Positions 5,324-43,380 of a stretch of 44,857 nt of DNA are shown in pieces. How positions within the stretch are numbered: position 1 is the stretch's first letter; every line of letters begins with the position of its first letter. The notes below the pieces were generated by a model, which saw nothing but the letters and a program-made list of their open reading frames with translations, searched no databases and was not told where the DNA came from. Source of the DNA: Phycisphaeraceae bacterium. Lineage in GTDB: Bacteria > Planctomycetota > Phycisphaerae > Phycisphaerales > Phycisphaeraceae. The stretch covers positions 1-44,857 of the forward strand of contig JAHQVV010000213.1 in assembly GCA_019634195.1 (NCBI GenBank), read 5' to 3'. Both the position numbers and the translations under genes were made by a program.

Positions 5324-5376
5324 GCTCTATCTCGTAATTCCATTTTGCGCCAGAGAACGCATGGGTTTGTTTTGAC

Positions 5377-5446
5377 GGGAGGGCGAGGCTCCTGCCGAGC
5401 CGCATACGCCCTGCAACTCGCGGCTCGGCAGGAGCCTCGCCCTCCC
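5377..5446. repeat. Dispersed palindromic repeat, family A copy 1 (27-bp perfect arms)
   Basis: The arms at 5377-5403 (gggagggcgaggctcctgcc and on) and 5420-5446 are perfect inverted copies around a 16-nt loop. A second copy with the same arm and loop lengths lies at 42877-42946, and a partial copy begins at 44808. This copy lies between the DUF1549/DUF1553 gene and the cytochrome-WD40 gene. Confidence 0.95.
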
Positions 5447-5455
5447 AAAAAATCG

Positions 5456-7975: not shown

Positions 7976-10377
7976 TTGCCCTTCGCCTGCGCGTTGTCCT
8001 TGCCCGGCCGGTCGACACGCAGCCGACCACCCTGGCCGAAGCGGTGGATCACCGGCTCGCCGTTGACCTGGATCACCAGCTCACACATCAGCGACTTGTA
8101 GCTCCGCAGCGGCGTGTTCTCCGCGACCTTTACTTTGAAGCTCGCTGTCTCCTGGCCCGGCTTGATCTTGAGCGGCTCGGCGGTCACGTGCGCCGGCAAG
8201 CCCAGCAGCTTCAACTCGCCCTCGCCCTGCCAACCGCGTGGGTGCTCGAGGTTAACCACGAGCTGCGTCGTCTGGCCCTGCTTGCACTTGGCGCTGTCGA
8301 TCGTGCCTTTGACGAACGGCTCTTCGACCTTGACGGTGAACAACTGGCTGGACGCCCAGACCGCGCCGCCCTTCTGGTTGCCGTTGCCGATGATCACCAT
8401 CGGCCAACCGCGCGACGGGGTGCTCGCGTTCGCGTCGATCTCGTAAACGCCTTCGGTGTTCGTCTTATTCAGATCGATGCGCCCCGGGGCGCCGATCCCC
8501 GGCGGGCGGTAGAGCATGTACAAGCGGACCTGCTCCTCGTATCCCTCGTTGCGCGTGAGCCGGACCTGCAGCTTCTTCTTGCCGCCGTGCACCAGCGGGG
8601 CCTTGGGCTGGATGACGTCGATCTTGAACGGGATCGCCTGGGTGACCGCGACGGGGATCGTGTCGAGCGTGCTCTTGTAGTACTCGGTGCGGTTGGGGTT
8701 GGCCATAACCAGCGGGGTGACCTGACTGAAGCCGCCGCGGATGTGTTCGGCGCTGTCGCCCTTGGGCTTGGACACCGCTTGGATATCGGCGAGCACCGCA
8801 CCCACCGTCGCATCGGGCTTGGCCTCGAAGACAACGGGCATGAGGTTGCCTTGCTCGTCCGAGCTGTGGCCCTTGTAAGACACCCCGCCTGGCAGCCCCG
8901 CGATCTCGGGCGTCAGGTCGCCGCCGACACGCGTCCGCTGAACTGTGACGAGCGCCGCGGTGCGGTTGCCCTGCGGCAGGGCGATGGCTTGTCGGCTCTG
9001 CGGGCGGTTGCGGTCGTAGCGTGTGATCGCGGTGGACAACGCGGGCTGGTCAAGCGTGACTTCAAGCCGATACACGTAGTCGGCCCCGCCACGCAGGCGA
9101 TGGTCCTTCACGCGGACGTAGTAGTCGCCGTCCTGCGGCGCCTTGAAGGCCAGCACGCTGTCCGCGCCGCCCTGGTCGTCGTTGCCCTGGATATGCTTAT
9201 TATCCGCCGCGTTGAACACGTTGATCACCGAATCCAGCGGGCTGCCCATCGACCTTGCGAAGCAGCGGAACGTCGCCTGCTGCCCCTTCTTCATGCTGAA
9301 CTTGAAACAGTCGTGGTCGCCCCGCTGCTCGATGATGCCGTTGAACGCGACGGGCGGGGCGTGCGCCTCGGTTGCCTTGACGTCGTTCATCGAGTTGTTC
9401 TTCGCCGCAGGGTTCTCGATGACGTTCTTCAACCGGTTCACCCGCAGCGGCAGGCCCGACATCGCACGCAGGCCCTTGTACTCCGCAAGCACCTCGTAGC
9501 CGTTGTCCGGCTGCGCCGGCAGCGTGACCTGTTGTGCAAAGTCACCACCCGCGTCGCCGATCATCCGCAGCTTCACCAGCTGCCCCGGCTCGCCGCCCAG
9601 CGGGTACACCAGCCCCGGCTGGATCGCCTCGTCGACTTTGAGCAGGTACCAGTTGTTCGTCGAGCCCAGGTAGCCGGAGTCACGCAGTGTCAGCACGTAC
9701 CGGCCGTCCCGCGGCGCGATGAACGACACCACCGGGTCCTGCTTATGCTGCAGCGTGTCGTCGCACGCCGCGACCTCGTTGCCCTGCGTATCAAGCACCG
9801 CCAGTGTCGAGTCCGTAAACCCCCGGCCAAGACGCATCCCGACCACCTCGGCCACAAACGGCTGGCCCTTCTTCAAATCGACCGCGAAGTAATCCACGTC
9901 CTCCGCCTCGGTCCGCCCAACGACGATCGTGCCCAGCTCGATCGCCTGCGGCGAATCAAAGCTCGTGGTCTGCGTAAACCGCTTGCCGTTCTTCGTCGGC
10001 TCGTCGCGCTGTTCTTTCACCAACGGTCGATCCACCACGTGGAACGTGACCATCTCCGTCACGCCCGTCTCCGTCACCAGGCGCAGCTGATGCTCGCCCA
10101 GCGGCGCATCGGGCGCAATGGTGAAGGTCGCGTGGACGCGTTTGGACCCGTCCTTTTCATGGTTCGTCAGCGCGCTGGCCGCGATGCCTTCCGTGTGGAA
10201 CAGCGCCCCGCTGGCATCGTGCAGCCGTTCACCGTAGAACGTGACCTCGACCGTCTGCCCACGCTGACCCGCAACGGGCAGCAGGTTGTTGAGTTGGGGC
10301 AGGCCCGCAAACGCCGCCGCCGATTGCAACGACAACAGGACAAGACCTATCGCTCCGTGCCAGCCGATTCTCATCAT
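7972..10377 (-). CDS. Secreted PPC-domain-type (pre-peptidase C-terminal-like) protein of the cytochrome operon
   Basis: The 801-aa product has a signal peptide (about residues 1-24) and is otherwise built of beta-rich segments. An IPT/TIG-like opening (LPVAGQRGQTVEVTFYGERL) is followed by two stretches that look like pre-peptidase C-terminal (PPC) beta-sandwiches. The signs are F-x-V-x-x-K-K-G-Q (for example DYFAVDLKKGQPF, and later CFKFSMKKGQQATF) and paired D-x-x-Y-x-L/V-R-V/L-x-D motifs. No catalytic centre is visible, so it is probably an adhesive or scaffold partner, not an enzyme. It lies 36 bp downstream of the DUF1501 gene and its stop overlaps the start of the DUF1549/DUF1553 gene, so the three are co-transcribed. 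The role is inferred only from context. Confidence 0.82.
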   Translation of the reverse strand: MMRIGWHGAIGLVLLSLQSAAAFAGLPQLNNLLPVAGQRGQTVEVTFYGERLHDASGALFHTEGIAASALTNHEKDGSKRVHATFTIAPDAPLGEHQLRLVTETGVTEMVTFHVVDRPLVKEQRDEPTKNGKRFTQTTSFDSPQAIELGTIVVGRTEAEDVDYFAVDLKKGQPFVAEVVGMRLGRGFTDSTLAVLDTQGNEVAACDDTLQHKQDPVVSFIAPRDGRYVLTLRDSGYLGSTNNWYLLKVDEAIQPGLVYPLGGEPGQLVKLRMIGDAGGDFAQQVTLPAQPDNGYEVLAEYKGLRAMSGLPLRVNRLKNVIENPAAKNNSMNDVKATEAHAPPVAFNGIIEQRGDHDCFKFSMKKGQQATFRCFARSMGSPLDSVINVFNAADNKHIQGNDDQGGADSVLAFKAPQDGDYYVRVKDHRLRGGADYVYRLEVTLDQPALSTAITRYDRNRPQSRQAIALPQGNRTAALVTVQRTRVGGDLTPEIAGLPGGVSYKGHSSDEQGNLMPVVFEAKPDATVGAVLADIQAVSKPKGDSAEHIRGGFSQVTPLVMANPNRTEYYKSTLDTIPVAVTQAIPFKIDVIQPKAPLVHGGKKKLQVRLTRNEGYEEQVRLYMLYRPPGIGAPGRIDLNKTNTEGVYEIDANASTPSRGWPMVIIGNGNQKGGAVWASSQLFTVKVEEPFVKGTIDSAKCKQGQTTQLVVNLEHPRGWQGEGELKLLGLPAHVTAEPLKIKPGQETASFKVKVAENTPLRSYKSLMCELVIQVNGEPVIHRFGQGGRLRVDRPGKDNAQAKGK

Positions 10378-10413: not shown

Positions 10414-11772
10414 TTATGCCTCGCGCTCCAGCGTCTCGCTGAGCACCTTGCCGCCGTCGACGATCTCGATCGGCCGATCGCCCGGGGCCATGAGTTCTTT
10501 GTCCGCCACGATGCCGAGCTGGTTGTAGACCGTCGTCGCCAGGTCCGCGTGGCTCACGGGCTTGTCCGCGACCGCGGTCGAGGTCGCGTCCGACGCGCCG
10601 TAGGCCATGCCCCCCTTGAAGCCGCCCCCGGCCATCGCCGTCGAGAAGACACGCGGGAAGTGGTCCCGCCCGCTGTCCTTATTAATCTTCGGCGTCCGGC
10701 CGAACTCCGTCGTCAGCATCACCATCGTCCGGTCCAGCATGCCGCGCTCGTCCAGGTCACTGATCAGCGCCGCATAAGCCTGATCCAGCTGCGGCAGCTG
10801 TTTCGTCATCGCCGCTTGGATGTTCTGGTGGTGGTCCCAGCCGCCGAGCGTCGTCGAGACGAAGCGGACGCCGGCCTCCGCCAATCGCCTGGCCAGCAGC
10901 ATCCGCATCCCCGCCGGGTTCTTGCCGTACTTGTTCCGCACCGCCTCGGGCTCGGCCCGCAGGTTGAACGCCTCGCGCGCCTTCGTCGACGAGATCATCG
11001 TGTACGCCCGGCTGTAGAACTCGTCCATCGCGTCGAGCGCATCGGACTCCTCCAGCGAGCGGAAGTGGTCGTCCACCGCGTCGAGCATCGCCTGCCGGCG
11101 GGCAAAACGCTTGTGGTCGATGTCGTTAGGCAGCGACAGGTCGCGCACCTGGAAGTTTTCTTTAGACGGGTTGTCGCCGATCGAGAACGGCCCAAACTTG
11201 TTGGACAGGTACCCGCTCCCGGCGTGCTCGTTGGGCTGGCGGGGCACACAGACGTAGGGCGGCAGCTCGCCGTTGGCACCCAGTTCGTGCGAGATGACCG
11301 AGCCGAAGGACGGGTACTTGACCGCCGGGCTGGGCTTGTAGCCGGTGAACATATTGTGCGTGCCGCGTTCATGAGCGGCCTCGCCGTGCGTCATCGACCG
11401 GATGAACGTGATTTTGTCCGCGACTTTGGCGGTCTGCTTCATCAGCTGGCCCAGTTGAATCCCCGTCACGTTGGTGTCGATCGGGGAGAACGGCCCGCGG
11501 TACTGCGACGGGGCCAGGGGCTTGGGGTCCAGCGTCTCCTGGGCCGCCATCCCGCCGGGCAGGAAAATATGGATCACGCTGTCGCACTCGGGGTTCTTGA
11601 GCGCGTAGTCCTTCTGCTCGGCCATCGCCTGGGCCTGGAAGAACTGCGGCAGCGTCAGCCCGAGCCCGCCGATCAGGCCGGCATACATGAACTCACGCCG
11701 CGACGGGCGCATCGCGTGGTCATCGCAGCCGCAAGGGGTAAAAACGGGGCGTTTAGGGTGTTGATCCGTCAT
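10414..11772 (-). CDS. DUF1501 family protein (sulfatase-like fold) with Tat signal
   Basis: The 452-aa product has a twin-arginine signal (PSRREFMYAGLIGGLGLTLP) after a short Cys-containing leader (CGCDDHAMR). The body matches DUF1501, a planctomycete-rich family distantly related to alkaline phosphatase/sulfatase folds. Diagnostic stretches are IHIFLPGGMAAQETLDPKP, FIRSMTHGEAAHERGTHNMF, VSTTLGGWDHHQNIQ and TEFGRTPKINKDSGRDHFPR. The enzymatic reaction is not established. The frame is open to 11826, but the ATG at 11772 is preferred because an AAAGG sequence lies about eight bases upstream and the signal then begins at the usual distance. It is the first gene of the DUF1501-PPC-DUF1549-cytochrome/WD40 operon. 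The 230 bp upstream to the CcsA stop show no gene and presumably hold the promoter. Confidence 0.9.
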   Translation of the reverse strand: MTDQHPKRPVFTPCGCDDHAMRPSRREFMYAGLIGGLGLTLPQFFQAQAMAEQKDYALKNPECDSVIHIFLPGGMAAQETLDPKPLAPSQYRGPFSPIDTNVTGIQLGQLMKQTAKVADKITFIRSMTHGEAAHERGTHNMFTGYKPSPAVKYPSFGSVISHELGANGELPPYVCVPRQPNEHAGSGYLSNKFGPFSIGDNPSKENFQVRDLSLPNDIDHKRFARRQAMLDAVDDHFRSLEESDALDAMDEFYSRAYTMISSTKAREAFNLRAEPEAVRNKYGKNPAGMRMLLARRLAEAGVRFVSTTLGGWDHHQNIQAAMTKQLPQLDQAYAALISDLDERGMLDRTMVMLTTEFGRTPKINKDSGRDHFPRVFSTAMAGGGFKGGMAYGASDATSTAVADKPVSHADLATTVYNQLGIVADKELMAPGDRPIEIVDGGKVLSETLEREA

Positions 11773-12002: not shown

Positions 12003-14042
12003 TCAAGCAGACGCGGGCAAGCCCTTGAGCCTCTCTTCGCGTTGTTCCCAACACACACGCACGCCCTCGATCAACTGGCCCAGCCCCGCAGCCATCATGA
12101 ACAGCAGCAGCCAGGCGGAGAACCAGTAGTAGATGTTGAGCGTGCCCATCAGCGTCATCGTCAGGAAGGCCGCCGTGGTCAGCACGCCGACGATGAGCAG
12201 CCCGCTGCCGATCATGACTTGCTGCAGCGGGGGCAGCAGCGGGGGGTGCTTGAGCCGGTAGTTGGTGTACCAGAGGTGCGTCGGCACCCATAGCGGCAAC
12301 GACATCAGCAGCAGGATATTCGTCCCGATCACCGTTAATACCGCCCACGCCCCGTCCATAAAACCGTAGGCGTGCAATCCGACGCCCAGCATGTTCGTGC
12401 CGAACCACGACCAGATCGTGACGATGTTGCCGCCGATAGCCAGGACCATGATGCCGCGTTCCTTGACCAGGTGCCCCCACCGCGCGTGGAGGATGATCGC
12501 GTTCATCAGGACGATCAGGATCGCACCGTTCTCTTTCGGGTCCCAGCCCCAGAACCGGCCCCAGGACTGGTCCGCCCAGATCCCGCCTAAGACCGTGCCG
12601 ACAAAACTGAACAGCAGCGCAAAGCAGATCACCGCGTAGACCATGCCGGCGATCGCTCGGGCCATCTTCCGGTCCATGAGCGACGTGGTCATGCCGAAGA
12701 CGATGTAGCAGATCGCGATGAACCCCGCCAGGAAGGTCGCCGAGTAACCCAGCGTGATCGTGATCACGTGCGTGCCCAGCCAGAAGTTCGAGTCGAGCAC
12801 CGCCTGCATCACGCCCATCGTGTCGCCGTCTTTGGAGAGGTGCAGCGCGACGAGCAGCGTCGCAACGCCCGCGGACGACGCCGCCAGCGACGCGACGCCG
12901 AGCTTGGTGATCTTCTCGAGGACGATCGCGCCGCCCACGATGCCCCAGCCGATGAACACGGCCGAGGAGTACAGGTTCGTCACCGGCGGTCGGCCCTGCA
13001 GCCAGATGCGGACGATCAGCGCCGCGGTGTGCAGCACGAACACGATCATCAGCACAGCCATGCCCGACCGCCACAGCGCCGTGTATCCGTCCCTGGGCAG
13101 GATCGGCCGAAGCAGCATCGCGAGCAGGCCCATCAGCCCGGCGAGGATATACAGCGCGATGCCCTTGGAAAACGGCGCGTACCGGTTGTAGCCCTGTTCA
13201 AAAGCGGCCTTACGCGCCTTGGCCGGGACAAAGTCTTGCTTGAACGCCAGGTGGTCTTGCAACGCCGAGTTAAACGCCTGGTGGTTGTCGTCCCGCAGCG
13301 CCTTCATCATCGCCTGCCAGGTCTGGCCCGCCTTGCGATCCAGCGCAAATTCGTTGAGCCCCTCCCTTGGGTCCTTGACGATCGGCACCCACTCGTCGCC
13401 CTGCACCTCGGGTGGAACGACAAAGGGCGTCGCGTTGATACGAAGACGCTGGATCAGCGACAGCTTCCGCATGAGCCCGATGACGTGCTCATCAAACGGC
13501 TTACGCAGATCGTCGCGCACCTTGTCCGCACGCTCCGCCTGACGCCCGACTTCAAAATAGATCGGCTCGGCACCCTCGCTCGGCGGGTTCATGAACTCGC
13601 CAAATGAAAACAACTGGCCGTCCTCCGGCGTCTTGCCGATCAGCCCCAGCACCCCGGGGTCGTCGATGCGGATCACACGGCGCTGCATCGCCTCGGGACG
13701 CCCCGCCATTAACTCCGCAAGCCAGATCACCGCGGGCTTGTCGGAAGTGCCCTCACCCTTGAGCAGCATCTCGTCCATCAACGACTGCTTCTGGCTGATC
13801 TGCAACAACGCGTTGCGGGCGACCGTGTCGAACGGCTTGACCCGCCCGTCCTGCGAGACGGGGACCTTGCCAAGCGTGTCGTAATGAAACCGGGACAACT
13901 CGTCGGGCTGCGTCACCTTATACGCGCCCATCAACAGGTACACCGCGATCACCGCCGCCAACACGTAAGGCAGCGCGCGCAGCACCTTTGAGCCGCCGGT
14001 CGTTTCAATCGTTTCAAATCGGTCTTGCTTGGATTCACTCAT
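12003..14042 (-). CDS. ccsA: Cytochrome c biogenesis protein CcsA/ResC (System II heme handling)
   Basis: The 679-aa polytopic membrane protein exports heme and attaches it to apocytochromes together with ResB. The tryptophan-rich WWD signature lies at about 489-504 (WADQSWGRFWGWDPKE). Candidate heme-ligand histidines sit in or near membrane segments at 338, 425, 519 and 557. Unusually for a stand-alone CcsA, there is a 250-residue hydrophilic region between the first membrane segment (about 25-42) and the core (from about 295). It opens with DGRVKPFDTVARNALL, a motif I associate with the large fused ResB-CcsA proteins of other phyla. The gene is 12 bp downstream of resB and ends the lipoprotein-resB-ccsA operon. 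The neighbouring CxxCH proteins are plausible clients. Confidence 0.93.
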   Translation of the reverse strand: MSESKQDRFETIETTGGSKVLRALPYVLAAVIAVYLLMGAYKVTQPDELSRFHYDTLGKVPVSQDGRVKPFDTVARNALLQISQKQSLMDEMLLKGEGTSDKPAVIWLAELMAGRPEAMQRRVIRIDDPGVLGLIGKTPEDGQLFSFGEFMNPPSEGAEPIYFEVGRQAERADKVRDDLRKPFDEHVIGLMRKLSLIQRLRINATPFVVPPEVQGDEWVPIVKDPREGLNEFALDRKAGQTWQAMMKALRDDNHQAFNSALQDHLAFKQDFVPAKARKAAFEQGYNRYAPFSKGIALYILAGLMGLLAMLLRPILPRDGYTALWRSGMAVLMIVFVLHTAALIVRIWLQGRPPVTNLYSSAVFIGWGIVGGAIVLEKITKLGVASLAASSAGVATLLVALHLSKDGDTMGVMQAVLDSNFWLGTHVITITLGYSATFLAGFIAICYIVFGMTTSLMDRKMARAIAGMVYAVICFALLFSFVGTVLGGIWADQSWGRFWGWDPKENGAILIVLMNAIILHARWGHLVKERGIMVLAIGGNIVTIWSWFGTNMLGVGLHAYGFMDGAWAVLTVIGTNILLLMSLPLWVPTHLWYTNYRLKHPPLLPPLQQVMIGSGLLIVGVLTTAAFLTMTLMGTLNIYYWFSAWLLLFMMAAGLGQLIEGVRVCWEQREERLKGLPASA

Positions 14043-14054
14043 GGCAACACTCGC

Positions 14055-15440
14055 TTATGCCGAGGCATTCGCCCTCCGTTCATACCGCAGCAGAGACACG
14101 ACAAAGTGCATGCACAGCCCAACCGTTACCACCACGCACGACAGGTAAGGCACCCACGCGCCGGGGTTGTCCGCGACCTGAAGCACCGTCCCGAGGTTCC
14201 GGTTCAGCGCCGACTGCTGGAAGAAACCCGACTGGAAAAACGCCTTCTGATCGTAACGCAGCGGCTGGTTCATCTTGATGAACGCGTCCCGGCTCTCGCC
14301 CGACTCGGGCGCGTCCAGGTGCAGCGTCGACGAGTAGTTCATCGGCGTCGTTGTGCCCGTGAACTTGTCGTGGCGGAAGTCCACCAGCTGGAGGGTGTAG
14401 GGCACGTGCGTCTCTTTGAATCGCAGGGAGACCTCCCATGTCTGGCCATCCAGTTCGAGTTGGATCGGCCGAACGGTTCCGACTGTCGAGAGCAGGTACT
14501 CGCCCAGGCGTTTTTCCCCGTCGAACAGAGTAACGACCACGGACGGCTGGTCCACGTCCATCTCTGTGCCGGTCGCGGCGTCCTTCTCTTTCATTGTCCA
14601 GAGCAATTGGGTGCGATCGCCATCTTCAAAATCGACACTGACCTTTTCCGTATTCGCCATCCACCTGTCCACGCGTACCTTGACGGGGACCGTTGTGTCG
14701 GTGATCGGCTCGTCGTTTTCGCCTGCCGACTCGATGATCGCCTGCGGGATCACGATGTGCTCTTCCTTGCCGTCGCCCAGGTCCCTGACGAACGCGATCT
14801 CGGCCTCGCGGATATCGCGGATCGTGTTGGACGCGCCCTGTTCGTGGATCCACATCTGGCCTTCGGTCGCGCCGATTCCAGTGATGTACTCGCCGACAAG
14901 CATGAGGATGATGCCCGCGTGGATGAGCACGATCCCGGCCTTGCGGCTGCCGAAGATGTAGTGGCAACCCACGCCGATCAGCGTCATCGGCACGGCCCAG
15001 ATCAGCATCATCACGATGACGTCCTGCTGGATCGTCGCGGAGGTCTTCGGCTCGAGCACGGTGTACGCCGTGACCGACGTGCCGGCCAGGACCAGGCCGT
15101 AGCCGAGCCACAGCATGTTGCCCTTGCCCGTGACCTTGTACCGCAACGCGTGCGCCGCGAGGAGGTTGACCAGCAGCAGGCCGATGATCAGGAACCCGCC
15201 GGGGAACCAGTGGCCGTAGGCCCAGGTCTCTTCGCTGCCGGGGTACAGCAGCGATCGGAAGACATCGAAGGGCACGTACACAAAGCTGGAGCGGAAGTAT
15301 TTCTCAACGACCTGCCAGATGCCCAATTCGACCTGCGCGAGCGTGCCGACGAAGATGAGGTACATCGACATCGCCAGCAGCACGACCGTCAGCCGCAGTG
15401 ACGCGAGCCAGGTCAACGGGTTGTCTTTCGAAAGCTTCAT
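14055..15440 (-). CDS. resB: ResB-like cytochrome c biogenesis protein (System II)
   Basis: The 461-aa protein has a ResB domain: an N-terminal membrane hairpin starting SLRLTVVLLAMSMYLIFVGT, further membrane segments near 75-135 and 165-185, a large periplasmic beta-rich region, and a last membrane segment near 430-450. ResB forms the heme-attachment complex with CcsA and binds the apocytochrome. The start codon overlaps the stop of the preceding lipoprotein gene by four bases (ATGA), and ccsA follows 12 bp downstream, so the three are tightly co-expressed. The length is normal for ResB. Confidence 0.92.
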   Translation of the reverse strand: MKLSKDNPLTWLASLRLTVVLLAMSMYLIFVGTLAQVELGIWQVVEKYFRSSFVYVPFDVFRSLLYPGSEETWAYGHWFPGGFLIIGLLLVNLLAAHALRYKVTGKGNMLWLGYGLVLAGTSVTAYTVLEPKTSATIQQDVIVMMLIWAVPMTLIGVGCHYIFGSRKAGIVLIHAGIILMLVGEYITGIGATEGQMWIHEQGASNTIRDIREAEIAFVRDLGDGKEEHIVIPQAIIESAGENDEPITDTTVPVKVRVDRWMANTEKVSVDFEDGDRTQLLWTMKEKDAATGTEMDVDQPSVVVTLFDGEKRLGEYLLSTVGTVRPIQLELDGQTWEVSLRFKETHVPYTLQLVDFRHDKFTGTTTPMNYSSTLHLDAPESGESRDAFIKMNQPLRYDQKAFFQSGFFQQSALNRNLGTVLQVADNPGAWVPYLSCVVVTVGLCMHFVVSLLRYERRANASA

Positions 15441-16123
15441 GATTCGTCTGTCGCCTGTTCGGGTACCTCGCCGCCGCCCTCATCGATCGTCTCCAACCCC
15501 GGCAGCACGGGGCGGGGCACACCCTTGGGCCTGAAGGTGAGGACCATCTGCGCCATGCCCGTTCGGTTCGCTTCGAGCGTCGCGTCGTCGCCTGCGAGTT
15601 TGAAGAACCAGGTCTGGTACACCCCGCCGCCCTCTGCGGGGATCTGTACGATCGCGGCGGCGATGCGCGTCGGCATGTGTTCGCCCTGATACTGGCCGTG
15701 CAGTTCGATGAAGGTCGCCTCGCCAACCCCGATGTTCATCGGCTCGGAGATCTTGTCTTTGGGGCCGGGCCCGGTCACGTTGGTGATGTAGATCTGCTGG
15801 AGCCAGCGGAAGACGTTCGCGTTCACGCCACCCGCGTCGCCGTCGATCTTCGACACCGTCATGCGCCCGGGCAGCGACTCGGTCGAACCCTTGAAGCGGT
15901 AGTCGGCCAGGAGCCGGTCCGGCACCTCCGGGGCGTCGATCCAGCCCGGCGGGACCTCCCACACCCAGGACAAGCCATCGACCTCAACCTCTGCCTCGCG
16001 CAGCGCGGTGTCCGGCCAATCGTAGCCGACGGGCTTGGACACCTCGTAACGCTCGATCGTCGGCTCCTCGCCACAGCCCAGCACAAACAGCGGGGCGATC
16101 AGGATGAACATCAGGCGTTTCAT
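15437..16123 (-). CDS. Lipoprotein of the ResB-CcsA operon, unknown function
   Basis: The 228-aa product starts MKRLMFILIAPLFVLGCGEE, a signal peptide with a lipobox (F-V-L-G-C), so a mature lipoprotein anchored at Cys17 is expected. The rest is soluble with mixed alpha/beta character and no metal- or heme-binding motif (no CxxC, no CxxCH). A longer open frame extends to 16231, but the signal peptide fixes the start at 16123. The stop overlaps the resB start by four bases. Its position as first gene of a System II operon suggests a role in cytochrome assembly or in monitoring the envelope, which is inference only. Confidence 0.85.
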   Translation of the reverse strand: MKRLMFILIAPLFVLGCGEEPTIERYEVSKPVGYDWPDTALREAEVEVDGLSWVWEVPPGWIDAPEVPDRLLADYRFKGSTESLPGRMTVSKIDGDAGGVNANVFRWLQQIYITNVTGPGPKDKISEPMNIGVGEATFIELHGQYQGEHMPTRIAAAIVQIPAEGGGVYQTWFFKLAGDDATLEANRTGMAQMVLTFRPKGVPRPVLPGLETIDEGGGEVPEQATDES

Positions 16124-28529: not shown

Positions 28530-28638
28530 AAAAGCTTGAATCACTCGGTTTGCCTTTGGGGTGTCGGGCTGAGCTTGTCGAACCCTGACCGCCCGCCGCG
28601 GAGGCGACTGCAACACTTAATCAAACCAAGCCACTTCA

Positions 28639-29289
28639 TCAATCCTCAATCGCTTTGATCTTGATGTTTTTAAACTGCATCTTCATGTGAACCCCGCCGT
28701 GCAGTTGCAGGCCGATCTTGCCCTTCTCGGGGTAGGTCACACCGTCGTAGTCGTTGATGAGCTCGCCGTTGAGGTAGGTCTTGATGTTCTTGCCCTTCGT
28801 GACGACGCGTAGCGTGTTCCACTGGCCGAGCTTGTGGGCTTTTTTGATGGTGTCATCGGGCTGTTGAGGGTAGCTGCCGTTCTTGTCTTTGGGGCAATAC
28901 AGCGCGCCGGTCAGGTCTTTCTTCAGCGAGCGCGAGACCCCGATCTGCACTTGGTGTGATTGCCCGCGGAGGAAGATGCCCGAGTCGTAGTCTTTGCTGG
29001 GCGTCTTGTAGTCCGCGACGAGTTCATAGTCGCCAAACCCCGCGTCGGTCCAGAGCACCGATCCCTTCTTGCCCGGGTTCTCGCCGATGATGACGCCGTC
29101 CTCGAGCTTCCAGTGGTCGGGCTTTTTTTTATTGTCGTTGGTCCAGCCGTCGAGGCTGTCTTCCGGCATGAGCGAGGCCCAGCCGTCGTCGCCCTTGTCT
29201 TTTTTCTTGCCGTGATGATCGGCGGTCGCCAGGGTCGCAAACAAGCCCATCGTCAGGCAGAGGGTGATCGCCAGGGTCGTCGTCTTCAT
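28639..29289 (-). CDS. DUF1080 (3-keto-disaccharide hydrolase/LamG-like) secreted protein
   Basis: The 216-aa product has a signal peptide (about residues 1-23). A single DUF1080 domain with a concanavalin-like beta-sandwich follows: S-L-D-G-W-T near 43-48, W-K-L-E-D-G-V-I-I-G, a D-Y-E-L-V-A-D-Y-K strand, S-G-I-F-L-R-G, W-N-T-L-R-V-V and G-x-I-G-L-Q-L-H-G-G near the end. The family is abundant in planctomycetes; some members hydrolyse 3-keto sugars, others only bind glycans. The frame is open to 29394, but the signal peptide fixes the start at 29289. It is divergent from the methionine sulfoxide reductase gene, with 107 bp between the two starts. Confidence 0.92.
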   Translation of the reverse strand: MKTTTLAITLCLTMGLFATLATADHHGKKKDKGDDGWASLMPEDSLDGWTNDNKKKPDHWKLEDGVIIGENPGKKGSVLWTDAGFGDYELVADYKTPSKDYDSGIFLRGQSHQVQIGVSRSLKKDLTGALYCPKDKNGSYPQQPDDTIKKAHKLGQWNTLRVVTKGKNIKTYLNGELINDYDGVTYPEKGKIGLQLHGGVHMKMQFKNIKIKAIED

Positions 29290-29396
29290 CGCTAGGCTCG
29301 CTTTCGTCGGGTCCTCTGCAATCAATCGCAAGAGTGAGTATAGACTAGACGCCGATCGCGACGACTTATTAAAAGACCAGCGCAGCCAAACCACGG

Positions 29397-29876
29397 ATGA
29401 CCGAAACCCTCGCCATCACGCCCGGCCAAGACCGAGAGGACACCTACCGCCAGCTCCTTCCACAGCTGCTCGCGATGATTGAGGCGGAGCGCGACCGCGT
29501 GGCCACGCTCGCGAACCTCTCTGCGGCGCTGCGTCAGGCCTTCGGCTTCCACTGGGTCGGGTTCTACCTTGTCCAGGGCAATGAGCTCGTGCTCGGCCCG
29601 TTCCAGGGCCCCGTCGCCTGCACAAGGATCGCCCACGGCAAGGGCGTCTGCGGCACCGCGTGGTCGACGAACACGACGCTGATCGTCCCCGACGTCGAGG
29701 CCTTCCCCGGCCACATCGCCTGTAGTGCACAAACCAAGAGCGAGATAGTCGTGCCCATCCACGATGAGCAGGGTGACGTCTGGGCCGTCCTCGATGTCGA
29801 CTCGTCAAACAAAGACGATTTCTCGGACGTCGACCGCGACGCACTCGAACAACTCGCCGCGTGGCTAATTCGCTAG
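29397..29876 (+). CDS. msrC: Free methionine-(R)-sulfoxide reductase (fRMsr, GAF fold), with replaced 3' end
   Basis: The 159-aa GAF-fold enzyme reduces free methionine-R-sulfoxide in the cytoplasm. Cys75, Cys85 and Cys109 have the same spacing (10 and 24) as Cys84, Cys94 and Cys118 of the E. coli enzyme, and the surrounding sequence (VACTRIAHGKGVCGTAW; HIACSAQTKSEIVVP) is canonical. The C-terminus ends abruptly after LEQLAAWLIR. A second copy of this end, diverged at synonymous positions and nine residues longer, lies 560 bp downstream at 30379-30454. The resident 3' end therefore seems to have been displaced by inserted DNA that also brought the convergent gene at 29873-30352. The stop codons of the two genes overlap in one CTAG. 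Confidence 0.92.
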   Translation: MTETLAITPGQDREDTYRQLLPQLLAMIEAERDRVATLANLSAALRQAFGFHWVGFYLVQGNELVLGPFQGPVACTRIAHGKGVCGTAWSTNTTLIVPDVEAFPGHIACSAQTKSEIVVPIHDEQGDVWAVLDVDSSNKDDFSDVDRDALEQLAAWLIR

Positions 29877-30352
29877 ACCGCACACTGCGGCCAAGACATC
29901 ACACGGGTGCCACTATCTGAGAGTGGGGGTGCTTCAAATAAATCAAGTACAGTCCCGCCGGGAGAGTTGTAAGAGGAAAGTACAAGACCTCCACTCAACT
30001 CAAATTCGACCATCGGCCCATCGCCATCGTCGTAATCATGTACATGTATTCCTTTCAAACGACTACCCGCATCATTGATCCAATCAGACATGACTTCTAC
30101 GGGAAACACTTTTTCATCCAAGGAATCCTTGCAACTCACGCCCCAATGAAAACTTGTGGAAAGATCAAGATAGACGTTGGACTCTAATTTCAGCCAAAAA
30201 CTGTAGTACTCCCAGTCTTCACCACAGATGCCTGGCAGTTCTACGCCTTTGGTGCAGTCAGCCTCAGAACGCAAGACTTGAACAATACGTTCGCCTGCAT
30301 GTTCTTTTGCAATTTCTGCTAACGATTCACGGGTTTTCGCATGTTTATTCAT
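29873..30352 (-). CDS. Hypothetical protein on a probable foreign insert
   Basis: The 159-aa product starts at MNKHAKTRESLAEIAKEHAG and has no signal peptide or membrane segment. It is acidic and aromatic in the middle (EDWEYYSFWLKLESNVYLDL), with beta-strand character towards the end (VEFELSGGLVLSSYNSPGG). I do not recognise the family. Local base composition is visibly lower in G+C than the neighbours (about half, against nearly two thirds around it), and codon use differs in keeping with that. The gene is convergent with, and shares a CTAG stop with, the fRMsr gene, and lies inside the 560-bp segment bounded by the 15-bp direct repeat. Horizontal acquisition is likely; the function is unknown. 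The start at 30352 is preferred over an upstream extension that would run through the fRMsr remnant. Confidence 0.7.
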   Translation of the reverse strand: MNKHAKTRESLAEIAKEHAGERIVQVLRSEADCTKGVELPGICGEDWEYYSFWLKLESNVYLDLSTSFHWGVSCKDSLDEKVFPVEVMSDWINDAGSRLKGIHVHDYDDGDGPMVEFELSGGLVLSSYNSPGGTVLDLFEAPPLSDSGTRVMSWPQCAV

Positions 30353-30378
30353 GATCTTGGAGGAGATTGTACGTCGTC

Positions 30379-30454
30379 TTTCTCGGACGTCGATCAAGAC
30401 GCCCTGGAGCAGCTGGCCGCTTGGGTTACCGGCCTGGGCGAATCTTCGACCTAA
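30379..30454 (+). pseudogene. Displaced 3' remnant of an fRMsr gene
   Basis: Reading in frame from 30380 gives FSDVDQDALEQLAAWVTGLG and five more residues before a TAA at 30452-30454. The first 15 residues match the C-terminus of the intact fRMsr (29820-29864) at 14 positions, but 7 of the 14 identical residues use a different synonymous codon. The first 15 bases (tttctcggacgtcga) are identical to 29819-29833. No start or upstream domain is present. Confidence 0.8.
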
Positions 30455-30538
30455 TCCGCACAACCCGTTAAGTCTGTCACCCTGTCAGTCGATGGTCACC
30501 CTAGCGTCCTTACGATCCACGCAAGGGAGATTGACCCG

Positions 30539-31441
30539 ATGTCCGACACCGTACCGACCACCAACGACACCGCGAACGACACCGAGTCGGTCGTGCAAGC
30601 AGCGATCCAGGAGATCAGCCACATCGCCACCCTCCCCGAGGTGACGATAAAGATTATCAAGCTGGTCGAGGACCCCGACTCCACCGCCCAAGACCTCAAC
30701 AACGTCATCAGCAACGACCCCGCGCTGGGTGCCCGCATCCTCAAGGTTGTGAACTCCGCGTTCTACGGCCTGCCCGGGCAGATCGGGTCGATCAACCGCG
30801 CGATCGTGTTGCTCGGCCTCAACGCCGTGAAGAACATCGCCATCGCCGCCAGCCTCGCCAAGCTGTTCCGCGGCGGCAAGATCGCGGCCAACTTCGACGC
30901 ACGCGACCTCTGGCACAACGCCATCGCCTCGGCCTGTGCGACCCGCCTGCTCGCGGAAAAAGTCTCGCTCGGCCTGCCCGACGAGGCCTTCCTCTCAGGC
31001 CTCATCCACGACATCGGCATCATGGTTGAGATCCAGGCCCGGCGCAACCAGTTCGTCGAGGTCCTCCAGAAGCTGGACGAAAACCCGGGCCTGTCGCTGC
31101 TCCAAGCAGAGCTCGAGGTCATGGGTGCCACCCACGAACAATTCGGCCAGGGCCTGTGCAAGCTCTGGAAGTTCCCGCAGAGCTTCCAGTATGTCACCGG
31201 CTTCCACCACCGGCCGACCGAGCTGGCCGAAGGCCAACGCACACTCACCGGCCTGGTCTGCGTCGCCGACGTGATCACCAAGCAGCTCGCGATGGGCTTC
31301 ACCGCCGGCACCGAGCAGAACGAAGTCGACCCGGCCCTGCTCAAGGAGCTGGGCCTGACCGAGGGCCACCTCAAAGAGGTCGCCGAACAGCTGCCCGAGG
31401 CCATCGAAGAGGCCAGCGGTATCTTCCAGATGGGTGGGTAA
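30539..31441 (+). CDS. HDOD domain signalling protein
   Basis: The 300-aa protein contains an HDOD domain from about residue 25 to 225. It has the usual opening (IATLPEVTIKIIKLVEDPDS), a D-P-A-L-G-A-R-I-L-K-V-V-N-S-A-F-Y-G stretch, L-L-G-L-N-A-V-K-N-I-A, and a later L-I-H-D-I-G motif. HDOD domains are HD-like folds without a reliable phosphodiesterase centre and act in signalling networks such as motility, cell cycle or stress. No receiver, GGDEF or other output domain is fused. The start has a GGGAG sequence about nine bases upstream. A clear terminator follows the gene, so it is a separate unit from the lipid genes downstream. Confidence 0.93.
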   Translation: MSDTVPTTNDTANDTESVVQAAIQEISHIATLPEVTIKIIKLVEDPDSTAQDLNNVISNDPALGARILKVVNSAFYGLPGQIGSINRAIVLLGLNAVKNIAIAASLAKLFRGGKIAANFDARDLWHNAIASACATRLLAEKVSLGLPDEAFLSGLIHDIGIMVEIQARRNQFVEVLQKLDENPGLSLLQAELEVMGATHEQFGQGLCKLWKFPQSFQYVTGFHHRPTELAEGQRTLTGLVCVADVITKQLAMGFTAGTEQNEVDPALLKELGLTEGHLKEVAEQLPEAIEEASGIFQMGG

Positions 31442-31476
31442 TTCATTCAAACGCAGGAAATCTTCGGGGGAAAGAA

Positions 31477-31504
31477 GCCGGCGTCCGAAAGGGTGCCGGT
31501 TTTT
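31477..31504 (+). terminator. Rho-independent terminator after the HDOD gene
   Basis: Bases 31477-31486 (gccggcgtcc) pair with 31491-31500 (gggtgccggt) over a GAAA tetraloop, including three G-U pairs, and run into TTTTT (31500-31504). It lies 36 bp after the HDOD stop codon. Confidence 0.85.
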
Positions 31505-33666: not shown

Positions 33667-35582
33667 TCGTTCTGTCCCGAGTCGACGGCTTCGTCATGGA
33701 GAGGCCAAACGACCCAGTCGCCATCGACCGCGGTGTGGCCTTCGCCTATGACCCATTGGATGACGTCCTGCTCGCGGTCGCCATCCGCGTCATAGGCGGC
33801 CGTCCCGTTGTCGTCATCGCGGTCGGCACCGACGCTGTAGAGCACCGGCCGGCCGTCTTTCAGCGTGTCATTCAACGGCCCGCCGGTGATCCGGTCGATG
33901 GGCATGGTCGGCAGGTAGCGCGGCACGAGGGCTTCAAGCGTGTCCGGGTACGCCCCGTGGTCGGCTTTGTACAGTTCCAGTGCCAGCGCGGTTAGCGCGC
34001 CATCCGCGTAGGCGGTGTGCCGTTCAGCCACCTTGCGCACCGCGCCCAGCGCGGGCATGGCCCACGCGATTGGGAAGTACCGCGTCCTTTGATAGAGCGA
34101 GTCTTCGATCAGCGTGGAGAGCTCCGCTTCAGCCTTCGACTCGGGGTGCTCCCACATCGGCAGCGACACCTCGGCCTCGTACAGGGTGTAGAACCGGTCG
34201 ACCATCGCCGTCATGTCCTTGCGGTCGGCGACGACCATGACCGCCGCGGGGGAGACCGCCGTGCCGATCACGGTTGGCAGGAAATCCGCCTCGTCGGAAA
34301 TCCCAAAGTATCCCGGCCCGCCGAAAGACGACAGCTCCGAGGCCAAGCGACGCCAGGCCCGCGCGTCCAGGTGGCCGTTGCCCCTGCCGTTGTCGGTGTA
34401 CAGGTGCTGGATCAGGTCCATCATGAAAGCCCGTTCGCCGTCAAAGCCGGGCTTGTAACCGCGCCCCGCAGCGATTTGGTGGGCCAGGCCAGCCAACTGC
34501 TGGGATGAGAACGAAGCGGGGTACGCCGCGAGCGCCTCGCTGAGCGTTTGGTACATCAACTGCCGTATCGAGATGGTGACCAACTGATTGATCAGTGTGT
34601 TCTGTTCGTCGGCGTGGTCGGCGATGCCCAGCATGGCAACGAGGTTGGCGTATGCGGTATCGGCGTCTCCGGCGTCCAGGGCGCGGAACGTGTCTACGCT
34701 GAGCACCCGCCCGGCCGAACGAAGCGATGTGAGATGCTCCAACAGGATCATCCAGACCATCGGCGGCTCGTCGGCGTACTGGGCCTTCAACAACCGGGCA
34801 TCCGACTCATGCTCTTGCAGGGTCTTGCCCGGATCAAACAACGGCAGGTCGGCGATATCGGTCTCGTACCCGGCGATAAAACCCAGGCCCGGCATGCCCG
34901 CGGCCCGGCGTAGGTCGGACATTGCCCCCGCGTGGTTGTTGAGGAACGCCGTAACCACGGGCCAGCCGTCCTCGCCAGGACGGGCCCGCTCACTGATGAG
35001 GCTGTATACGTTCGGCTGTCCTTCGGCTGGTTCGGCGGGGGGCTGGGTATAGCCCATTGCCAGCATCGCGCGGCGCACGACCGGCCAGGCGCGCTGGTCC
35101 TCGGGTACCGCTGCCGCCTCAACATTCATCGCCACCGTATAGTCGACCGCGATATTGCGCGAGCCGGTGAAGTAGTACACCCCCATCGCGGTGTACAGAC
35201 CGATCAAGGCAACGACGCACCAAAACGCCCAACGCCAGGCGTGCCACAGCAGGTTTCGTTTGCGCTTCGTGGCCCTGCGAATCAGCTTGGCCGTCTTAGA
35301 CCAGTCGCCGAAGCGCTTGACCGCTTCGTCCCCGCTCTGCCCGGCCGCTATCGCGTCTTCAAAGTGTGCAACGAGCTCGCGCGCGATGTCCGCCTTCTCC
35401 ATGCGCCAAAGCCTGGTCCTGCGGACCAGCTTCGTGAGCAGCGCCTTCGTCTCATCGGGGATCGAGGCCTGCACGATCGTACGGCGCCAATCCAGCCGGC
35501 ACGACACCCGCCAACGGATGATGTCGCGTATCGGCGTGTACCAAAACCTTAAAAGCAATGACGGTTCGCGGCTCTCGCTCAT
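33663..35582 (-). CDS. Large membrane-anchored protein with HAAS-like prefix, partner of PadR
   Basis: The 639-aa product opens with a soluble region whose residues about 25-85 resemble the HAAS/permease-prefix segment often encoded next to PadR regulators (RELVAHFEDAIAAGQSGDEA, then a V-K-R-F-G-D-W motif). One membrane segment follows near 100-120, and a long extracytoplasmic domain of about 500 residues has no family I recognise. The stretch near the end (ALTALALELYKADHGAYPDT, then LEALVPRYLPTMPIDRITGG) resembles the periplasmic part of pseudopilins. The ATG at 35582 overlaps the padR stop by four bases, so the two are translationally coupled. The open frame to 35663 is rejected for that reason. 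It is probably controlled by the PadR repressor; its activity is unknown. Confidence 0.85.
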   Translation of the reverse strand: MSESREPSLLLRFWYTPIRDIIRWRVSCRLDWRRTIVQASIPDETKALLTKLVRRTRLWRMEKADIARELVAHFEDAIAAGQSGDEAVKRFGDWSKTAKLIRRATKRKRNLLWHAWRWAFWCVVALIGLYTAMGVYYFTGSRNIAVDYTVAMNVEAAAVPEDQRAWPVVRRAMLAMGYTQPPAEPAEGQPNVYSLISERARPGEDGWPVVTAFLNNHAGAMSDLRRAAGMPGLGFIAGYETDIADLPLFDPGKTLQEHESDARLLKAQYADEPPMVWMILLEHLTSLRSAGRVLSVDTFRALDAGDADTAYANLVAMLGIADHADEQNTLINQLVTISIRQLMYQTLSEALAAYPASFSSQQLAGLAHQIAAGRGYKPGFDGERAFMMDLIQHLYTDNGRGNGHLDARAWRRLASELSSFGGPGYFGISDEADFLPTVIGTAVSPAAVMVVADRKDMTAMVDRFYTLYEAEVSLPMWEHPESKAEAELSTLIEDSLYQRTRYFPIAWAMPALGAVRKVAERHTAYADGALTALALELYKADHGAYPDTLEALVPRYLPTMPIDRITGGPLNDTLKDGRPVLYSVGADRDDDNGTAAYDADGDREQDVIQWVIGEGHTAVDGDWVVWPLHDEAVDSGQND

Positions 35583-35944
35583 GCCGCACCCCCCGGCAGT
35601 GGGGGCGCCCCGGCACCGTCCCCGAGGCCGAGCTTGCCCAGCGCCACGGACAACGCCTCCCACTGCGACGTGTCCTTCGCAAGCCGGCGTTTGCCCTTGC
35701 CCGTCAGCCGGTAGTACTTGCGGGGCCTGCCTGTATCCGCCTTGTCCATGCGCGACTTGATCAGGCCCTTTGCTTCAAGGTTGTACAGCATGGGGTACAG
35801 GGTCGACTGCCCCAGGTCCAGCACGCCGTCGGTCCGCTTGGCCAGCGTTTTAACCATCTCGTAGCCGTACATCTCGCCGTTTTGGAGCAAGGTCATGACG
35901 GCCAGGGGGGCGGCACCACGCATCAATTCGCGTTCGATCTTCAT
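35579..35944 (-). CDS. PadR family transcriptional regulator
   Basis: The 121-aa protein is a PadR winged helix. Its N-terminal helix and HTH (LMRGAAPLAVMTLLQNGEMY; GYEMVKTLAKRT) lead to the recognition helix and wing with the family motif G-Q-S-T-L-Y-P-M-L-Y-N-L-E-A-K-G-L-I and T-G-R-P-R-K-Y-Y-R-L-T-x-x-G. The C-terminal dimer helix is short, as in the PadR-s2 group that regulates membrane proteins. The ATG at 35944 is preferred (GGAG six bases upstream) over a GTG at 35956. It overlaps the downstream HAAS-like gene by four bases. A perfect palindrome over its own -10 region suggests autorepression released by a ligand. Confidence 0.93.
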   Translation of the reverse strand: MKIERELMRGAAPLAVMTLLQNGEMYGYEMVKTLAKRTDGVLDLGQSTLYPMLYNLEAKGLIKSRMDKADTGRPRKYYRLTGKGKRRLAKDTSQWEALSVALGKLGLGDGAGAPPLPGGAA

Positions 35945-35956
35945 TATTGGCTCCAC

Positions 35957-42835: not shown

Positions 42836-42876
42836 CTGGTTGTTCCCCAAAATGTGTTTAAGGATTGCGGTTTGTC

Positions 42877-42946
42877 GGGAGGGTGAGGCTCCTGCCGAAC
42901 CGCGCGTCTTCTGTGACAGGCGGCTCGGCAGGAGCCTCGCCCTCCC
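42877..42946. repeat. Dispersed palindromic repeat, family A copy 2
   Basis: The arms at 42877-42903 and 42920-42946 have the same 27-bp length and 16-nt loop as the copy at 5377-5446; the left arm differs at two positions and the right arm is identical. It lies between the small gene and terL, within what should be one operon. Confidence 0.95.
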
Positions 42947-42954
42947 AGAGAGCT

Positions 42955-43380
42955 TCAATCGCCTTGGACAAGCGTTTCATCCGGCTCGGGCACCGACAGC
43001 GCCTGGGCGAGCGCATCAAACGCCTCGTCTTGTTCGGGCTGCTGCTCCGTGCCCAGGCTCGAGGCCCGGCTCAGTTCGGTCTTCAGCAAGTCCACGCAGG
43101 CCTTGCGGACCTGCTCGGCCGAGAGGGTTTCGTCTTCCGCGGTCGCTTGCCCGATCAGCCGTGTCGCCGCGACGAGGCGGTACCGCGACAACAAGAGCTG
43201 CGTCTGGGCGTCGGCCAGCACGCACAGGCCCGCCAACGTCCGCCGTGTCTCGGGCTTGGCCGCCCAATCAACGAGGTCGTCAAGCGACAGGTTGTTCGCG
43301 CTGGCGAAGGACAGGATGTCGTGCTCGGCCTGGGCCAGGCCCAGGATCAGCCGGTCTTCCGTCTGTATTGGCGCACTCAT
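42955..43380 (-). CDS. Small helical protein of the packaging module
   Basis: The 141-aa product is almost entirely alpha-helical and acidic, without signal peptide or membrane segment (for example LILGLAQAEHDILSFASANN; RKACVDLLKTELSRASSLG). I do not recognise a family. Its position, directly ahead of terL and overlapping the ParB-like gene by four bases (ATGA), is where a small terminase subunit normally lies. Size and helical nature fit that role, but no HTH is convincing. The repeat 42877-42946 now separates it from terL. Confidence 0.75.
   Translation of the reverse strand: MSAPIQTEDRLILGLAQAEHDILSFASANNLSLDDLVDWAAKPETRRTLAGLCVLADAQTQLLLSRYRLVAATRLIGQATAEDETLSAEQVRKACVDLLKTELSRASSLGTEQQPEQDEAFDALAQALSVPEPDETLVQGD

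Follow-up and report, generated by a model that had tools for sequence, protein, structure and literature searches.

A diverged fRMsr gene end left beside an orphan gene: probable scar of a homology-anchored insertion in a Phycisphaeraceae genome

In the window analysed here (44,857 nucleotides of contig JAHQVV010000213.1 from a Phycisphaeraceae bacterium), the gene for free methionine-R-sulfoxide reductase (fRMsr) is followed by a second, diverged version of its own end, and an orphan gene lies between the two. By comparison with a congener, the second end appears to be the old resident one, and the first end together with the orphan appears to be the added part. We propose that the locus is probably the scar of a homology-anchored insertion, by which one gene was acquired through recombination. 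The source genome (G000; 3.62 Mb, 246 contigs, 89.6% complete) was compared with four congeners, G001, G002, G003 and G004, and holds a second locus of the same anatomy.

The fRMsr gene (29397-29876, forward strand) is open throughout its 159 codons, so the resident gene stays intact, and it finishes with the first of the two ends (end 1). Its product has the GAF fold (PF01590, E = 6.4e-17). In a comparison with PDB sequences, it matches the solved fRMsr structure 3mmh over residues 11-155 (E = 1.5e-42), and YebR (1vhm) is also a relative (E = 5.5e-32). NCBIfam gave no model for either fRMsr or the orphan, and Rfam gave nothing at E ≤ 0.1 over positions 29000-31500. Both flanking genes are native, since they occupy the same places in G002: a 3-keto-disaccharide hydrolase-like gene on the left (28639-29289, reverse strand; PF06439, E = 6e-38) and an HDOD-domain gene on the right (30539-31441, forward strand; PF08668, E = 7e-55). 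As a side observation, the distribution of fRMsr within the family is patchy, with matches at E ≤ 0.001 in 6 of 25 genomes (one match being weak), and the best 80 of its 571 relatives in genome_contigs belong to Bacteroidota judging by their titles. The gene may thus be an old import into the genus.

The two ends form a direct repeat of 46 nt (29819-29864 and 30379-30424) with 80% identity, a spacing of 560 and identical first 15 bases. The preliminary description of this DNA had singled out those 15 bp (29819-29833 and 30379-30393), which turn out to be the first part of the longer repeat. Read in frame, the copies differ at 9 of 45 nucleotides, giving seven synonymous codons and one residue change (R to Q); 14 of 15 residues are common to both, and our recount of shared residues and synonymous codons agrees with the earlier one. 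The second end (end 2; 30379-30454, forward strand) reads FSDVDQDALEQLAAWVTGLGESST and, as also noted earlier, has its own longer tail and its own stop (TAA at 30452-30454). Past the shared tryptophan the tails, LIR and VTGLGESST, do not match. End 2 stands without the remaining gene, and an ATG at 30341, within the insert, starts a 37-codon frame that runs through it.

Which of the two ends is native can be judged from G002. Window positions 28638-29866 align to G002 12229-10973, and positions 30380-31504 align to G002 11019-9898. In G002 the locus is collinear and uninterrupted, the insert is absent, and one stretch of 47 bp (10973-11019) matches both ends of the window. That is, nothing has been deleted relative to G002 at the insertion site; those 47 bp have been doubled instead. 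The 84 bp between end 2 and the HDOD gene (30455-30538) are native intergenic DNA, with 66 of 76 aligned bases identical to G002 and a score that none of 1000 shuffles reached. In contrast, no match to this part of G002 is seen in the 84 bp that directly follow the fRMsr stop, whose score was reached by 232 of 1000 shuffles. Because end 2 continues into G002-like native DNA, it is, by position, the resident end. Because the DNA directly behind fRMsr has no such match, we judge that end 1 arrived with the insert, from about position 29834 onward at least. The right junction is placed at or near 30379, as the alignment with G002 resumes at 30380.

The coding sequences of the ends speak less clearly. 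Over 45 coding bases, a small sample, end 1 differs from G002 at 10 and end 2 at 14; end 1 is therefore the nearer of the two, and the case for end 2 as the native end comes from the sequence that follows it. We also searched for the left crossover, or the start of the incoming stretch, through the identity with G002 at fourfold sites, and none was visible by this measure (59% in fRMsr against 60-78% in four neighbours, which makes fRMsr the lowest, though not distinct). One of the four congeners, G002, is informative for an empty site: the G004 contig stops short of it, and G001 and G003 carry fRMsr away from the HDOD gene. The preliminary description had predicted an uninterrupted site in relatives, closed by the ending at 30379-30454, and this is what G002 contains, with that ending joined to native downstream DNA. 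Its further proposal, that the incoming DNA brought its own fRMsr end, is supported by this one relative together with the codon pattern.

That pattern argues against a copy made on the spot. When end 1 was changed by simulated neutral substitution at nine places, one residue change or fewer resulted in a fraction of 6e-5 of trials. Neutral drift of a duplicate is thus very unlikely, which fits the earlier view that the divergence excludes a fresh duplication. Among G001, G002 and G003 the fRMsr ends differ mutually at 8, 10 and 14 of 45 positions, so the two ends within the window are about as divergent as those of different congeners. Few residue changes combined with congener-level divergence suggest that the two ends were separate for most of their history, each within a functional gene and in different genomes.

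The gene between the ends (29873-30352, reverse strand) has 159 codons and differs in composition from its surroundings. Its G+C content is 46.7% overall and 43% at third positions, compared to 57.8-64.8% and 82-90%, respectively, in four neighbouring genes. The lower G+C had been remarked on before, as had the overlap of the orphan and fRMsr stops in CTAG (29873-29876), and both features hold. When the insert was shuffled 2000 times, a frame of at least 155 codons appeared in 4 cases. The spacer that separates the orphan's ATG from the repeat is only 26 bp long (30353-30378), so a promoter would largely sit in resident DNA.

No relatives of the orphan were detected. In 301 genomes of the order, its own match alone reached E ≤ 0.001, with none in the other 300 (G001-G004 included). 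Across 392 genomes of the phylum, there were eight weak matches besides its own (E 0.006-0.085), which we attribute to chance: five are short partial alignments and three cross stop codons. Searches of phages and plasmids were likewise empty, as were genome_contigs and viral_contigs under an exact 8-residue pattern search, which reaches close relatives only. Pfam, NCBIfam, PHROGs and PADLOC gave no significant family match, and the best hit among PDB sequences had E = 0.16. Structure prediction gave a model of poor quality (mean pLDDT 59.7), and a fold search of the PDB with it returned nothing useful (best E 0.23). A donor sequence for the insert was not found in the searches made.

The same anatomy recurs on another contig of the genome, in a gene unrelated to fRMsr and with its own repeat (locus L118, contig C190, positions 287-1779). 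Here a sigma-70 region 4 gene stops at 313, with a terminator-like hairpin behind it (359-397). The interposed gene, a methyltransferase of 336 codons, has 53% G+C in a locus of 64%. Beyond it lie a second, diverged sigma-gene end (a coding remnant of 24 nt at 1685-1708, its first 12 bases the same as in the first end) and a second copy of the hairpin (1741-1779). Plain alignment of the two copies detects the hairpin alone. In G001, G002 and G003 the sigma gene is directly followed by the next gene, uninterrupted (G004 gave no match), and none of these three gave a match to the methyltransferase. Within 863,685 bases of the genome, the opening 25 bases of the hairpin are found at these two places only, even with up to four mismatches.

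Several surveys place these two loci in context. Diverged direct repeats gave 11 matches in 361 kb of the source genome, the sigma locus among them, and none in a block-shuffled copy. The same scan of 908 kb of Bacteroidota control loci returned 63 matches, unsorted; repeats of such score are abundant there, and real genomes can thus contain many that score as high. A protein-level survey of gene ends over the 863,685 bases (24% of the genome) scored fRMsr at 75 and two other intergenic matches at 36 each. One match inside another gene scored 84 and, by eye, resembles a shared C-terminal signal. For comparison, stretches of G001 gave two intergenic matches (39 and 37) and 80 Bacteroidota loci gave four (61, 39, 36 and 36). 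The fRMsr repeat stands out by its place, not by its score alone. The sigma case escaped this survey, as its called frame is below the 90-residue limit, and was found by the DNA scans. A wide DNA repeat scan of the same bases produced 56 matches. In 43 of them both copies fall in called genes and in 13 they do not; the fRMsr pair counts among the 43 because the orphan frame, as called by the program, is lengthened to cover end 2. Of the 11 own-genome matches, seven besides the window's own were inspected singly, as was one of G001; those of the 13 that were not inspected singly were judged from the table. Further scars may be among these 13 (e.g. at L166 and L180). This makes two cases in roughly a quarter of one genome, and other genomes may hold such ends too.

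Some of the other repeats merit a description of their own. A third candidate, a pair of 53-bp repeats around a 416-codon gene on L133 (amino-acid dehydrogenase-like by eye), was ruled out: each of the four congeners has the region with its order kept (unbroken in G004 and G002), and both repeats are members of a family with many copies. The L133 repeats (6936-6988 and 8345-8397), as well as those on L127, L161, L175 and L187, are repeated hairpin-like elements of several kinds, and the L133 kind has many matches across G000-G003. Within the window, positions 5375-5448 and 42873-42964 both match one spot in G002 (about 13730-13827), on both strands, and are probably another repeated hairpin element. 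On L119 (contig C195 of the source genome, 6125-8464), two adjacent 3-keto-disaccharide-hydrolase-like genes share 76% identity over 467 bp, and the DNA between the repeats has 52% G+C. Locus L063, from a record of Algoriphagus chordae (gene at 3968-4738 and a stop at 5363, in reverse-strand coordinates), carries on its minus strand a gene whose end is repeated 625 bp downstream in DNA called as non-coding (GMIEQKETCMEILRGFCGKA versus GMNERKEESLEIVRGICEKA; score 61). It is possibly a similar scar or a small paralogue. Finally, L208 (contig C1 of G001, 12010-15491) is an integron-like cassette array with seven GGTTAG-ended repeats among small minus-strand genes (one glyoxalase-like, one ankyrin). 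It adjoins deformylase and formyltransferase genes, and no integrase was found among its seven tested ORFs.

A homology-anchored insertion would account for the fRMsr locus as follows. The donor would be a relative at roughly the distance that separates species of the genus, and its DNA carried an fRMsr end (end 1) and then the orphan, tail to tail. This DNA would recombine with the resident fRMsr inside shared sequence, which would leave the gene whole and with the donor's end. The far side would be joined within the last resident fRMsr codons, at or near 30379, presumably through short homology, and the old end would be left as a 75-bp remnant in front of the HDOD gene. The same product would also result from one crossover with a circle and a subsequent deletion. 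The source may have been DNA taken up from outside the cell, and such uptake by this bacterium is possible. Genes of the ComEC and DprA families are present in the genome, and since they also occur in 10 and 11, respectively, of 14 control genomes, they are weak evidence for it.

The scarred locus could instead have been built elsewhere and have arrived here complete, as part of a longer stretch exchanged by ordinary homologous recombination. Protein identities leave room for this. Between G000 and G002, fRMsr is 70% identical and HDOD 87%, compared to 82% and 85% between G001 and G003, and an fRMsr so far below HDOD allows an import of the gene from another lineage. On the other hand, the DNA after end 2 and the HDOD gene are G002-like, so such an import must have ended to the left of them or come from a near relative. 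Moreover, the original event would merely be moved to another genome. We regard this history as unlikely, though worth keeping in view.

A site-specific integrative element, stripped of its recombinase in the manner of a CIME, is a less likely explanation still. Here the 15 bp would be the core of an attachment site, and what is left of the element would be a replacement fRMsr end and one cargo gene. The geometry suits it well: an identical 15-bp core is present at both borders of the insert (at 29819 and 30379), it starts both ends, and the new end lies in the gene with the old end outside. In 863,685 bases of the genome, this sequence is found at these two places only, even with one mismatch allowed. 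However, of the 25 ORFs called from 16.2 to 44.7 kb, the 24 other than that at 35582-35956 yielded no recognisable recombinase, though 13 of these 24 have no family match, and the insert is only about 545 bp. Integron core sites (GTTRRRY or RYYYAAC) were absent within 40 bp of five tested points at the locus. An identical run of 15 bp is also only mildly unusual between copies of 80% identity, as it arose in about 2% of trials, and in 3 of 90 trials that kept the protein. The sigma case, in turn, has a different 12-bp repeat, so no site is common to both loci. The suggestion in the preliminary description that the 15-bp repeat marks a crossover or attachment site is therefore unsupported as far as an integrase site is concerned. 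Two loci with the same anatomy and different sequences fit homology to each target gene as the guide, and favour a homology-anchored insertion over an attachment site.

We also considered a class of one-gene mobile units, each carrying a substitute 3′ end of the gene it enters and sharing no common recombinase. This would be a long shot. If such units existed, each would be a small circle or fragment recombining at the start of the duplicated end, and they would provide a harmless way of inserting behind different core genes (e.g. fRMsr or the sigma-factor gene).

That the gene end was duplicated locally long ago, around an inserted gene, and then drifted is very improbable: a duplicating insertion also gives a direct repeat around the insert, but drift would hardly have confined nine nucleotide differences to one residue change (the 6e-5 above), and the tails fail to match. 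Most improbable of all is an assembly artefact in which the loci of two strains were joined in a metagenome-assembled contig, since, even if the contig number and completeness of this assembly resemble a metagenome bin, the ends share no exact match longer than 15 bp (usual assembly words exceed this), the rest of the contig keeps the order of G002 over the compared stretch, and the same anatomy is found at a second locus on another contig.

The one-at-a-time arrival of orphan genes is rarely visible in bacterial genomes. At a locus of this kind, the left-behind, diverged gene end marks the junction, and resident and incoming DNA can be told apart without the donor. Two scars in 24% of one genome suggest that this footprint could be counted across genomes, which would make the share of homology-anchored one-gene insertions measurable.

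How does the locus compare to known systems? Integrative elements can restore the 3′ end of a protein gene, as SGI1 does in trmE, and CIMEs may lack a recombinase of their own. As in those elements, the new gene end at the fRMsr locus would come from the incoming DNA and the old end stands at the far border. Unlike them, the insert is tiny, no recombinase was recognised around it, and its site is not shared by the two cases in the genome.

The scar belongs to a known kind, as its anatomy matches insertion with long target duplication. This was described for restriction-modification genes, notably in Helicobacter pylori (Nobusato et al. 2000, as presented in PMC3031569, PMC3154945 and PMC4978471). 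In the passages of these papers that concern it, a gene at a resident locus is flanked by a long direct repeat of resident sequence, as in our case, and the repeat is single in the one uninterrupted relative, G002 (10973-11019). The fRMsr locus departs from those accounts in its cargo, an orphan rather than a restriction-modification gene (a typical rather than a defining feature there), and in its copies, which have diverged to the level of species; one copy therefore came with the insert. Homology-facilitated illegitimate recombination, as summarised in PMC3240628, offers a second parallel: one side is anchored by homology (here this would be the fRMsr side, with which the swapped end is consistent), the other joins through short or no homology, and the inserts are gene-sized. 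In that summary, the homology at the junction is mostly 3-10 bp and resident DNA of similar size is generally deleted, whereas at fRMsr the resident DNA was doubled. The nearest worked example that we found appears to be the displaced effector ends of the type VI secretion (T6SS) arrays of Vibrio cholerae, for which a process similar to homology-facilitated illegitimate recombination has been proposed (PMC5361080). The arrays have as their target an effector gene whose 3′ part varies, along with an immunity gene; at our locus the target is a repair-type enzyme gene, and the cargo has no known function. In both settings, nevertheless, an incoming gene together with a new end would shift the old 3′ end, or the neighbour, downstream.
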